The notes under the pieces: model-generated
The model's input: only the letters and a program-made list of their open reading frames with translations
Told to the model about the DNA's origin: nothing
Databases searched by the model: none
Assembly: GCA_017460025.1 (NCBI GenBank)
Contig: JAFUBV010000001.1
Span: 1-39,443, forward strand
From: Methanobrevibacter sp.
Lineage (GTDB): Archaea; Methanobacteriota; Methanobacteria; Methanobacteriales; Methanobacteriaceae
Direction of reading: 5' to 3'
DNA length: 39,443 nucleotides
Made by a program: the position numbers and the translations under genes
Part shown: positions 5,753-8,813 of the stretch, one piece after another
Position numbering within the stretch: position 1 is the stretch's first letter
Layout: each line of letters starts with the position of its first letter

Positions 5753-6316
5753 TTATAATAATGATTTAAGGAAATCTTCTTTAGTTTGTTTAGCAACTAA
5801 CATTTCAGCTGCTTCACGACTGGTGAATTCAGTTTTTTCCGCATCATTATCTTCATCGTTTTTATCGATTTCTTCTTCATTGTATTGGAAATCTGGTTGA
5901 CGATTTTTATTTAAATCTTTGAATAATTTATCCATTTGTTCAGATACAGCTTTATCCACAGTATCTTTAACTGTTTCAGTTACATCAGTTTCAGAAATAG
6001 ATTTAATTTCAGATTTCACAGATTCTAATTCTGTGTGGAATAAACCTTTGATATCTTCAAGGGTTAAGGATTTTTCTTCCTCTTCTTCCTCTTCTTCTTC
6101 GTTGGTTTCGGCAGGTTTGCCTTCACCTTCATCTTCATCGTCTTCTTCGGATGCGGATTTAATAGCATCTTTAACAATTTTCTCTAATTGTTTAGATACT
6201 GCTTGAACAGTATCATTTAATAATTCTTCTTTCAAAGAAACTGAATTTTCATTAATTAAATCAATTACATCTTGTTTAGTTAATGTTTCTACTTCTTCGT
6301 TATTTTTTTGAGTCAT
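5753..6316 (-). CDS. Scaffolding protein from internal in-frame start
   Basis: Within the protease-scaffold gene an ATG at 6316 (codon 192) has a strong ribosome site, GAGGTG at 6328-6323, six bases upstream. Translation there would give a 187-aa acidic, coiled-coil protein matching the scaffold half. Nested in-frame scaffolds are known (lambda C/Nu3). The site falls precisely at the domain boundary, which supports real use, but expression is inferred. Confidence 0.6.
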   Translation of the reverse strand: MTQKNNEEVETLTKQDVIDLINENSVSLKEELLNDTVQAVSKQLEKIVKDAIKSASEEDDEDEGEGKPAETNEEEEEEEEEKSLTLEDIKGLFHTELESVKSEIKSISETDVTETVKDTVDKAVSEQMDKLFKDLNKNRQPDFQYNEEEIDKNDEDNDAEKTEFTSREAAEMLVAKQTKEDFLKSLL

Positions 6317-6889
6317 ATTTTGCACCTCATTTTTCATAATAGTATAACATGCACCAGTTAAGCAAGTGGATTTCACTAATCCTTTACTGGTAGTGATGGT
6401 TCCGTAAGTATCCCAATTTGCAGGCATACTTGTTAAGCTTATTTCTCTTAAGGTGATGTCTTTTATCTCCCACCCACCATCTTCTAATTGGGTGTGTTCA
6501 GTTACTCTCCCTCCAATTGACAATCCTAGTTTAACACCGATGTCTAACATTTCTTTGATGTCTTGAGCATATTTTGGTAAGATTGTAGCTTTGATACGTA
6601 AACTGTACGCATCTGTATCTACTACATGTGTGATTGCTCCAATGACACCATCGAATAATCCATACCAGTGATCACCATGCAAGTTTAAACCTGCTTGTAA
6701 TTGTCTTTTCATGGATTCAATACATGTTGGTGTTACAATGTCTAATTGAAGGTCTTTGTTGGTTGTTGAAGCTATTCCTTCTATGGTTAATGAACCGTCC
6801 TCATTGAGAGTATAACTTTTTGTGGTTTCTGGATAGATTTGAGGACGTGCGTAGAGTTGGAATTGCTTTTCTAATACTTCAGTTGACAT
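5753..6889 (-). CDS. Prohead serine protease fused to scaffolding domain
   Basis: 378 aa. Residues 1-170 look like an HK97/U35-type prohead protease: GIASTTNKDLQLD near 39-50, catalytic His candidates in NLHGDHW (H71/H74), the nucleophile in LGLSIGG (S124), and the family's SLTSMPANW near 152. From about residue 192 the protein becomes Glu-rich and coiled-coil (an EEEEEEEEE run near 268), as in scaffolding domains. The gene precedes the major capsid gene. An internal start probably also gives free scaffold (separate entry). It would cut scaffold and capsid delta domain during maturation. Confidence 0.85.
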   Translation of the reverse strand: MSTEVLEKQFQLYARPQIYPETTKSYTLNEDGSLTIEGIASTTNKDLQLDIVTPTCIESMKRQLQAGLNLHGDHWYGLFDGVIGAITHVVDTDAYSLRIKATILPKYAQDIKEMLDIGVKLGLSIGGRVTEHTQLEDGGWEIKDITLREISLTSMPANWDTYGTITTSKGLVKSTCLTGACYTIMKNEVQNMTQKNNEEVETLTKQDVIDLINENSVSLKEELLNDTVQAVSKQLEKIVKDAIKSASEEDDEDEGEGKPAETNEEEEEEEEEKSLTLEDIKGLFHTELESVKSEIKSISETDVTETVKDTVDKAVSEQMDKLFKDLNKNRQPDFQYNEEEIDKNDEDNDAEKTEFTSREAAEMLVAKQTKEDFLKSLL

Positions 6890-6957: not shown

Positions 6958-7014
6958 GTGGGTTTCAGGATTTAAACCTGACTATTATGTAAAAAATGAT
7001 TCTTTTTAACCCAC
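6958..7014 (-). ncRNA. tRNA-like element 1 (acceptor + T arm, shortened middle)
   Basis: On the minus strand GTGGGTT (7014-7008) pairs perfectly with AACCCAC (6964-6958), forming a 7-bp acceptor-like stem. Directly abutting it is a 5-bp stem, TCAGG/CCTGA, with a 7-nt loop TTTAAAT, the geometry of a tRNA T arm with G53-C61 and A58 kept. Only 26 nt lie between, too few for both D and anticodon arms; they can form a weak A5/T5 hairpin. No encoded CCA. It could be an armless tRNA or a processing signal. Confidence 0.55.
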
Positions 7015-7043
7015 ATTTTTTCAAATTAATCCTTATTTTTTTT

Positions 7044-7083
7044 TAGTTTTTACATGGGAGGACCACCTCTCCATGAAAAACTA
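7044..7083 (-). other. Long stable hairpin upstream of tRNA-like element 1
   Basis: Left arm 7044-7061 and right arm 7066-7083 pair over 17 bp with one single-base bulge on each side and a 4-nt loop. The flanking T-run before and A-run after extend the stem further. Neither strand has a U-tract right after the stem, so it is not an ordinary terminator. It lies 30 nt 5' of tRNA-like element 1 in the late transcript. Confidence 0.55.
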
Positions 7084-7513
7084 AAAAGAAAGAGAGTACA
7101 TTTAAGGGTAAAAAAATGTGAAATGAATTATGTTACCCCTTTATGTAAATGAGAGAAAAAAAAATAAATTAGGAAATTTTTTTTTGAATGTTTTGTCATT
7201 ATTTTTGAACAATGGTGATTTAAAAAAAAATAAAAGAAGTTACGGCTGGCTGAATTTTAATTATATTTTTTTTTAAACATTATTTTTTTTTCTCTCAATG
7301 ATTTTTACATTATCTAAAGATTCATTTCATTACCCTTTTTCTTTTGTCGACGTGTTTTTATTGTATTTTTTCCCCTGAAAATGGAAAAAAAATACTGGCC
7401 TAATATTTTTTTTTTAAACAAAGGTGAAATATAGGTGTTTTTTTTTTAGAGACGAACGCATATTTTTTCCCTATTTTTTTTGGAGCGAAAAAATGTTTTT
7501 TTTGAGAACTGTA

Positions 7514-7553
7514 GGTGGAACAGGGAATCGAACCCTGCAAAGATTATTCCACC
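7514..7553 (-). ncRNA. tRNA-like element 2 (40-nt acceptor/T-arm minihelix)
   Basis: On the minus strand GGTGGAA (7553-7547) pairs perfectly with TTCCACC (7520-7514). The T-arm-like hairpin CAGGG-TTCGATT-CCCTG (7537-7521) abuts the 3' acceptor strand with no gap. The loop has the canonical T54 T55 C56 R57 A58 pattern and a G53-C61 pair. Only nine bases (TAATCTTTG) replace the D arm, anticodon arm and variable loop. It is the top half of a tRNA and nothing else. On the plus strand the loop would not match the T-loop consensus, which fixes the orientation. Confidence 0.65.
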
Positions 7554-7868: not shown

Positions 7869-8813
7869 TTAGCTTTCAGGTATGTTGGGATTGAATGCTT
7901 GTGCCCAATCTTCCAAAGGTGTTAAATTAACAACATAATGCACCTCATCCTCAGGCTTAACCTTAGACTCCCAAACAGACAAATAAGTACATCTACAATT
8001 CGGATGAAACGGTGGATACTTCCCACCTTTAATCAAATCTTGGATATTATGAACAAGTTCTTCACCACGATTCTCAAAGGTAATCTTATCATTTTTATTG
8101 AATTCATAAGCATATTGCAAACAAGTAGTGCAGACATGTTCATCTTCAGCAGTTAACAACTTAACCTGAGTGTAGCCTTCATTCACATAAGACTGTAAAA
8201 TACCAGTATTTTGAATACGTGAAGTTTCAGTCCTGGCAATCATAGTTGCCCTTTGACGTGGAGTGAAAGTACTTCCAGGCAACTGGGTTATACCTAACTC
8301 TAACAGTTTAGGTGCAAGGCTTAAAGGGTTTTCACCTTCAATGGCTGCACGAGTCATACGATTTTTAACAGCACCACGCAAATCATCATTAAGGTTTTGT
8401 ATTAAACCATAATTATAATTCCTTGCGAAAGCGAAAGCTAATCTGTCAGTGTCAGTGTATCGTAAGTGTTCAGCTATGTTACTGTATCCTTTGCTTTTAC
8501 CATAACTGTAGATTTCATTTAACAATCCATCTACTGTATCGTAAGTACCTGCAAGGATAGTATCCCAATCATTCTCCAATGACTCCCATATCTCCTGTTG
8601 ATAATAAGCTTCATTGAAAAAGAATTCTTTAGCTTCATCACTATCAATCCAGTTAATACTGGCCTGTAAAACATCATCGATTTGTTTGGATAGTAATTTA
8701 TAATATTTCATTACTTGGATATTATCACGTAGACTTTTTTCTGTGAACTCTTCTTCGAGTCCTAAGTCTTCAATTAATAATTGATTTGTTAATATCCTTT
8801 CAGCTGATATCAT
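7869..8813 (-). CDS. Mu F-like minor head protein / head morphogenesis protein
   Basis: 314 aa. The C-terminal half has the Phage Mu F-like domain: RATMIARTETSRIQNTG (residues about 195-211), then CTTC near 230, and KYPPFHPNCRCTYL near 270, the Cys/His pattern typical of this family. The N-terminal 180 residues are helical. Its ATG overlaps the portal stop codon (ATGA), the classical portal/minor head pair. Such proteins line or plug the portal and may help DNA entry. Confidence 0.85.
   Translation of the reverse strand: MISAERILTNQLLIEDLGLEEEFTEKSLRDNIQVMKYYKLLSKQIDDVLQASINWIDSDEAKEFFFNEAYYQQEIWESLENDWDTILAGTYDTVDGLLNEIYSYGKSKGYSNIAEHLRYTDTDRLAFAFARNYNYGLIQNLNDDLRGAVKNRMTRAAIEGENPLSLAPKLLELGITQLPGSTFTPRQRATMIARTETSRIQNTGILQSYVNEGYTQVKLLTAEDEHVCTTCLQYAYEFNKNDKITFENRGEELVHNIQDLIKGGKYPPFHPNCRCTYLSVWESKVKPEDEVHYVVNLTPLEDWAQAFNPNIPES

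Follow-up and report, generated by a model that had tools for sequence, protein, structure and literature searches.

Paired tRNA-like minihelices between head genes of a probable Methanobrevibacter virus: candidate RNA-processing elements conserved in related viruses

Main finding

Between two head genes of a tailed archaeal virus, we found a pair of small tRNA-like elements, TLS1 and TLS2, that recur at the same place in related viruses. We consider it probable, at roughly 0.6, that these are viral t-elements at which host RNase P and tRNase Z cut, separating the portal and MuF message from the protease and capsid message. For this we infer transcription through the gap between the genes, cleavage by both enzymes, and a benefit to the virus. 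Judged by its sequence and pairing, the structure itself is a t-element, or minimal pre-tRNA mimic.

The viral genome and the gap between two head genes

The window (the whole stretch of DNA that was analysed, 39,443 nucleotides) covers bases 1-39443 of a contig of 130,604 bases from a metagenome-assembled genome (G000:C273). This contig is a concatemer in which bases 1-53505 are identical to bases 77100-130604, an exact repeat that sets the viral genome unit at 77,099 bp; the contig is a complete circular or permuted viral genome that was assembled 1.7 times. The unit encodes a terminase, a portal, a MuF head protein, an S78 protease, and a major head protein, as well as an MCM helicase, an XPD-like helicase, two tyrosine recombinases, and DNA methylases. 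The closest named record is Methanobacteriales virus vir080, with 52% identity in MuF, and Methanobrevibacter MAGs, two of goat origin, contain the named relatives of the protease. Because of this gene content, the match to vir080, and the protease relatives, the source of the window is a tailed virus, most likely one that infects Methanobrevibacter of the rumen or gut. The MAG that contains the window also has another, diverged protease locus (G000:C230, L075), with about 39% identity, one internal stop, and no TLS elements.

The genes around TLS1 are arranged in the order terminase, portal, MuF, protease, and major head protein, and the 979-base gap between MuF and the protease contains no ORF of 60 aa. 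The original prediction had placed a minihelix between two head genes, and this was right: MuF lies upstream and the S78 protease downstream. The features of the gap and its flanking genes are as follows.

7869-8813, minus strand: MuF-type head protein, upstream gene (Pfam PF04233, phrog_115)
7514-7553, minus strand: TLS1, tRNA-like minihelix (sequence, fold, null model, covariation, covariance model)
7547-7553, 7538-7546, 7521-7537, and 7514-7520, minus strand: TLS1 acceptor strand, linker, T arm (loop 7526-7532), and acceptor strand
7513, minus strand: TLS1 discriminator-like base
7015-7513, minus strand: AU-rich stretch between TLS2 and TLS1, candidate excised RNA (no ORF of 60 aa)
7053-7075, minus strand: UGGU-loop hairpin (loop 7062-7065), core of a longer stem (recurrence; independent single-sequence folds)
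6958-7014, minus strand: TLS2, second tRNA-like element (sequence; covariation in 14 loci)
7008-7014, 6982-7007, 6965-6981, and 6958-6964, minus strand: TLS2 acceptor strand, 26-nt linker, T arm (loop 6970-6976), and acceptor strand
6957, minus strand: TLS2 discriminator-like base
5753-6889, minus strand: S78 capsid maturation protease, downstream gene (Pfam PF04586, phrog_80)

Structure of the two elements

Read on the minus strand from 7553 to 7514, TLS1 is GGTGGAA-TAATCTTTG-CAGGG-TTCGATT-CCCTG-TTCCACC. The geometry that had been predicted at 7514-7553 was confirmed in full: a 7-bp acceptor-like stem, a 9-nt linker or bulge, and a T arm with a 5-bp stem, a 7-nt loop, and the G53-C61 pair. 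RNAfold returned the same 12 stacked pairs with one junction pair shifted (drawn as 6+6 bp), at a minimum free energy of -16.4 kcal/mol (z = -3.05), and 2 of 200 shuffles folded equally well. A strict descriptor (7+5 bp without mismatch, the T-loop motif, and a linker of up to 12) matched the 77-kb viral genome once, at TLS1, and had no match in 60 shuffled genomes (4.6 Mb). A tRNA gene would have a cloverleaf with D and anticodon arms; here the 9-nt linker replaces the arms, and ARAGORN found no tRNA in the window. No known RNA family was found there by Rfam at the gathering threshold. The variable arm of tRNA-Ser was considered as an origin, and GTGGGGTAATCTCCGC looked alike, yet the resemblance was no better than that of shuffled queries (P 0.82).

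When linkers of up to 40 were allowed, the descriptor found two copies, TLS1 and TLS2, and none in shuffled genomes; the 77-kb unit holds no third copy. TLS2 consists of GTGGGTT, the 26-nt linker, TCAGG-TTTAAAT-CCTGA, and AACCCAC. The proposed acceptor/T-arm minihelix in the head operon of a Methanobacteriales virus stands, but it is not a lone element; the original prediction had overlooked TLS2. The two elements bracket a stretch of about 500 nt without an ORF of 60 aa, one at each end of the gap, and the protease start codon lies 68 nt after TLS2 in the window.

Distribution in related viruses

Relatives were gathered through MuF, the protease, DNA patterns, and whole genomes. Six related viruses or proviruses have TLS1 at this place, and thirteen have TLS2, the more widespread element; most of these are linked to rumen or gut Methanobrevibacter. 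Both are present in L010, L012, and L041 from IMG/VR and in the genomes G035 (L013/L046), G002 (L044), and G032 (L045). TLS2 without TLS1 was found in L066 (G062), L067 (G088), L070 (G027), L068 (G068), L069 (G002:C108), L081, and L087; L125 is a repeat of L066. Where both elements are present (seven loci), TLS2 ends 29-68 nt upstream of the protease start, and 314 to 499 nt separate it from TLS1. TLS1 lies 15-40 nt after the MuF gene in L041, L044, and L045, and in L010, L012, and L013 it is found downstream of cargo genes that follow or extend MuF.

With a TLS1 covariance model under strict filters, 4 of 151 genomes of the order were matched, all at this locus, and no copy was found outside the MuF-protease locus. 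Exact-match scans of the genome and viral contigs with the long 3' end of TLS1 found nothing, because the relatives differ in sequence. Across the whole order, the true TLS2s picked up by a TLS2 pattern lie at this locus, and the other inspected matches are ordinary tRNA genes or unpaired chance matches. A widened TLS2 pattern (GTTCTTT...GGTTYGAATCC) was over-broad in viral contigs; among the matches listed for 80 loci, four were strict; a single one of these overlaps an ARAGORN tRNA, and not one of them resembles the TLS locus. In the protease tree, in which several deep joins are uncertain, TLS2 occurs to either side of the deepest split shown, and TLS1 is limited to two clades. Several related viruses lack TLS1 or both elements; psiM2 has no TLS, and none was seen in the gap upstream of the vir080 protease.

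Outside this group, an unrelated 155-kb viral contig (L178) carries a minihelix-like element without an ARAGORN tRNA, just after a stop codon (7952-7992, minus strand; TCCCGGA-10 nt-AAAGG-TTCGATT-CCTTT-TCCGGGA), possibly an independent case. Dense tRNA arrays were also seen in Methanobrevibacter-type assemblies, with 20 tRNA genes in 3 kb in L105 (G020) and nine in L101 (G061); these are perhaps viral or contaminating.

Covariation and fixed geometry

Pair counts were taken from alignments (A5, A8, A9) in which the linkers had been trimmed by the analyst to a common length and the paired columns left untouched; MAFFT alignments (A1, A3, A4) misplace the acceptor strand. In the 21 pooled elements, 97.6% of the pairs are standard and both sides have changed in nine of the 12 pairs. 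When the 3' partner was slid by 1-3 columns as a control, 40-60% were paired, and the observed pairing score was reached by 0 of 500 shuffles. As pooling raises the covariation figure, TLS1 and TLS2 were also scored apart: the six TLS1 sequences, a set that omits L010 with its 6-bp T stem, are 100% paired with double changes at four pairs, and the 14 TLS2 sequences are 96.4% paired with double changes at seven. All six unpaired cells belong to the inner T-stem pair of TLS2, which is mismatched in 6 of 14, and TLS2 often has U56 in place of C56. The 12-bp distance from the T arm to the end (7+5) is kept in 20 of the 21 elements, the exception being TLS1 of L010 with 13 bp. G1-C72, G52-C62, G53-C61, U54, U55, and A58 are invariant, and the discriminator position is variable. 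L068 and L069 have an entirely different acceptor stem that is still 7 bp long.

Uncompensated breaks in the stems had been named beforehand as the outcome that would speak against a minihelix; in related viruses, compensatory changes preserve the stems. Because the elements recur at the same place with paired changes and a fixed 12 bp, and because no TLS1 copy occurs elsewhere, we conclude from these comparisons of sequences that they are RNA structure under selection, with the geometry that is gauged by tRNA end-processing enzymes. The six G.U cells in the stems of the 21 elements likewise suggest RNA. The acceptor/T-arm fold expected of a t-element is thus kept by selection in both TLS1 and TLS2, as covariation indicates, and as for the position at the border of an RNA, both occupy fixed places at the borders of the gap, where they would set predicted RNA ends. 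We find it barely credible that the elements are functionless remnants of decayed viral tRNA genes: other phages do carry tRNA-like pieces without ARAGORN calls (e.g., L178), but decay would not keep 12 pairs through two-sided changes at the same place over deep divergence.

An element acting at the DNA level, whether an attachment site derived from a host tRNA 3' end, a recombination site, or a transcription terminator, is also very improbable. The virus does have two tyrosine recombinases, tRNA 3' ends are common attP sites, and the hairpins lie in an AT-rich gap. However, an attP site is unlikely because searches of the virus's own assembly and of related genomes gave no host tRNA with the TLS1 sequence: a TLS1 18-mer occurs only in the viral contig of its own assembly (86% complete, so this is not absolute), and a 22-mer with one mismatch allowed hit only viral loci in 61 genomes. 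The acceptor 5' strand is also present, which attP would not need. An intrinsic terminator, a hairpin followed immediately by a T-tract, is unlikely because A-runs rather than T-runs follow both elements, in the window and in relatives. The T-loop identity and the G.U pairs, which indicate RNA, make a plain DNA hairpin unlikely.

Predicted processing of the head transcript

As minimal tRNA mimics (12 stacked acceptor and T-stem pairs and a T loop, without D or anticodon arm), TLS1 and TLS2 could serve the head operon as inbuilt signals for RNA processing. In each element, the acceptor stem would be cut at its 5' end by host RNase P, and the host's tRNase Z would cut 3' of the discriminator. 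The predicted products of the transcript are a message for terminase, portal, and MuF; two small RNAs, each a minihelix; the intervening RNA, whose ends would be defined; and a protease/major-capsid message that would be left with a short 5' leader of 29-68 nt. The most direct benefit would be independent stability and dosage for two messages, the low-copy one for portal/MuF and the high-copy one for protease/capsid. The original prediction had also named the CCA-adding enzyme as recognising this part of a tRNA, and had suggested mRNA cutting, stabilisation of 3' ends, or a viral RNA that ends like a tRNA; these are possible roles, the last being one of several candidate readings.

There are published precedents. 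In haloarchaea, RNase P and tRNase Z cut t-elements, and an RNA placed between two of them is released in vivo (PMC4326828). Two methanogen RNase Zs cut pre-tRNAs that lack single arms, such as the D or anticodon arm, and their cleavage of truncated substrates requires a mature 5' end, with cobalt required for full efficiency (PMC7479834). Aab9T, a designed minimal substrate of RNase P, consists of an acceptor stem, a 9-nt bulge, and a T arm, and archaeal RNase P likewise contacts its substrate mainly at the acceptor stem and T domain (PMC12630138). Human mtRNase P cleaved Aab9T more slowly than full pre-tRNA, by a factor of about 3000 as the holoenzyme and of about 5 as PRORP alone (PMC12630138).

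Some points weigh against processing. The gap is rich in T-tracts, which can terminate archaeal transcription, and minimal substrates such as Aab9T can be poor ones; how archaeal RNase Z acts on truncated substrates also varies with the conditions. The related viruses without TLS1 or without both elements also count against it, as do the 13 bp of TLS1 in L010 and the inner T-stem mismatch of TLS2, often accompanied by U56. The elements might otherwise form an uncut leader structure of the protease/capsid message, in which TLS2 (and TLS1) would control translation or stability as a binding site for a tRNA-binding protein. This would suit the wider distribution of TLS2 and its constant closeness to the protease start, and for TLS2 an uncut protein site in the 5' UTR is possible. 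Nevertheless, we regard the leader reading as unlikely, as the 12-bp rule and the open single-stranded flanks suit processing enzymes better, and the position of TLS1 directly after MuF would be left unexplained.

The RNA between the elements

Processing at both elements overlaps in part with another reading, that the main product is the bracketed RNA itself: a late, AU-rich viral ncRNA of about 310-500 nt, released and capped by the two elements in the manner of GOLLD or ROOL. We regard this as a real but less likely possibility. In each of the seven loci that carry TLS1 and TLS2, the stretch is kept, is AU-rich, and contains no ORFs, and the fold z-scores in these loci are -2.2 to -5.9 for the whole region and -1.1 to -6.2 for the inner part (-6.2 in the window); these scores are only suggestive of a structured body because control windows from the same genome overlap them, at +0.3 to -6.2. 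In an RNAalifold consensus of the whole gap in four loci, there are a few covarying pairs outside the TLS elements; their small number reflects how poorly the gap aligns, which leaves most body helices in these loci beyond covariation testing. The lack of an Rfam match also weighs against the ncRNA reading.

The body contains a recurrent hairpin whose UGGU loop is constant while its stems differ. In the window, L010, and L012, it reads GGAGAGG-UGGU-CCUCC with different outer stems; the stems are GUUUUAAGAC/GUCUAAAAC in L044, UUUUAAGGC/GUCUAAAA in L045, and GUAAAGAG/CUCUUAC in L013, and the L041 hairpin has a broken closing pair and was missed by the descriptor. It was not found in loci without TLS1, where a short match in L066 belongs to another motif. 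This co-occurrence with TLS1 favors the ncRNA reading, but it rests on two clades only. As UGGU is complementary to ACCA, a tRNA 3' end, the loop may recognise the CCA end of either a tRNA or TLS1; the UGGU-NCCA pairing shows no covariation because the discriminator is variable, which weakens the case. A new class of archaeal-virus RNA, that is, a late structured ncRNA of about 310-500 nt excised by host tRNA end-processing enzymes from between natural acceptor/T-arm minihelices, with a UGGU loop recognising CCA ends, is a slightly more doubtful proposal still.

Other elements and genes at the related loci

A second conserved non-coding element, TCATTTCGCTACYTT, lies in the MuF-protease gap of L066, L067, L070, L072, L073, L075, L079, L082, L068, and L069, and it is also present in L115, L117, L120, and L123. 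It occurs in loci without TLS as well, sometimes in two copies (L072, L073), and beside MuF-cargo-like genes without a protease. It is often followed by a pseudoknot-like motif, (CC)ACC-[S2]-GU(GG)-NUAAAC-[S2'], whose S2 strands vary and remain complementary (62 of 63 pairs, read by eye). Upstream of TLS2 in L067 and L070, there is a conserved small antisense ORF with a strong ribosome-binding site (about MILKVHIYDDDED...), and L013 and L066 are similar.

Some related MuF proteins carry C-terminal extra domains (L010 5001-6839, L012 4852-6690, L067 2231-3733, and L087 3117-4691), among them a metallopeptidase-like region in L010, below the cut-off, and an ADP-ribosyltransferase in L087. These extended genes are followed by small ORFs, like MuF polymorphic toxin cassettes; the MuF of the window has no extra domain. 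The MuF gene of L068 (1640-3604, 654 aa) has an insert between two cysteine/histidine-rich parts that reads by eye like an intein or homing endonuclease.

Comparison with known systems

Processing elements that resemble tRNA are known from eukaryotic nuclear RNAs and eukaryotic viruses. They are also known from haloarchaea (PMC4326828). In the literature searched, which covered few subscription journals, we found none described in an archaeal virus. The locus presented here is a natural, paired, and minimal version within a virion operon, and compensatory changes have conserved it across deep divergence. With it, one can test whether archaeal viruses have their operons cut by host RNase P and tRNase Z. 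The locus also offers candidate natural minimal substrates for both enzymes and hints at a possible new viral RNA in methanogens of the gut, whose virus biology is little known.

The eukaryotic mascRNA and menRNA are cut by RNase P and tRNase Z. They (RF01684) are likewise tRNA-like RNAs at a long RNA; they differ in lying singly at its end, whereas the TLS elements come as a pair, and the best RF01684 score, 24.3 bits for TLS1 of L013, lies below the gathering cut-off of 42.5. GOLLD and ROOL are large structured phage RNAs that often lie near tRNA islands, and GOLLD may carry tRNAs in its linker (PMC12286853). Those RNAs belong to bacterial phages and involve real tRNAs, whereas the body between the TLS elements is shorter and its expression only predicted; the GOLLD and ROOL Rfam models had no match in the window (gathering threshold) or in five relatives (E<=1).

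TLS1 shares the layout of Aab9T, with a 7-bp acceptor stem, an 8-10 nt bulge on the 5' side, and a T arm (PMC12630138). Aab9T was designed from Thermus tRNA-Gly and assayed with human enzymes, whereas TLS1 is a natural, predicted substrate. The t-elements of Haloferax volcanii, a tRNA-like structure before 5S rRNA and an engineered icrRNA flanked by t-elements (PMC4326828), resemble the TLS elements in that a tRNA-like structure adjoins an RNA whose end it would set. The TLS pair differs in being viral, in lying between head genes without D or anticodon arms, and in that its cleavage is predicted. In the engineered Haloferax case, two t-elements bracket an RNA, just as TLS1 and TLS2 would (PMC4326828).
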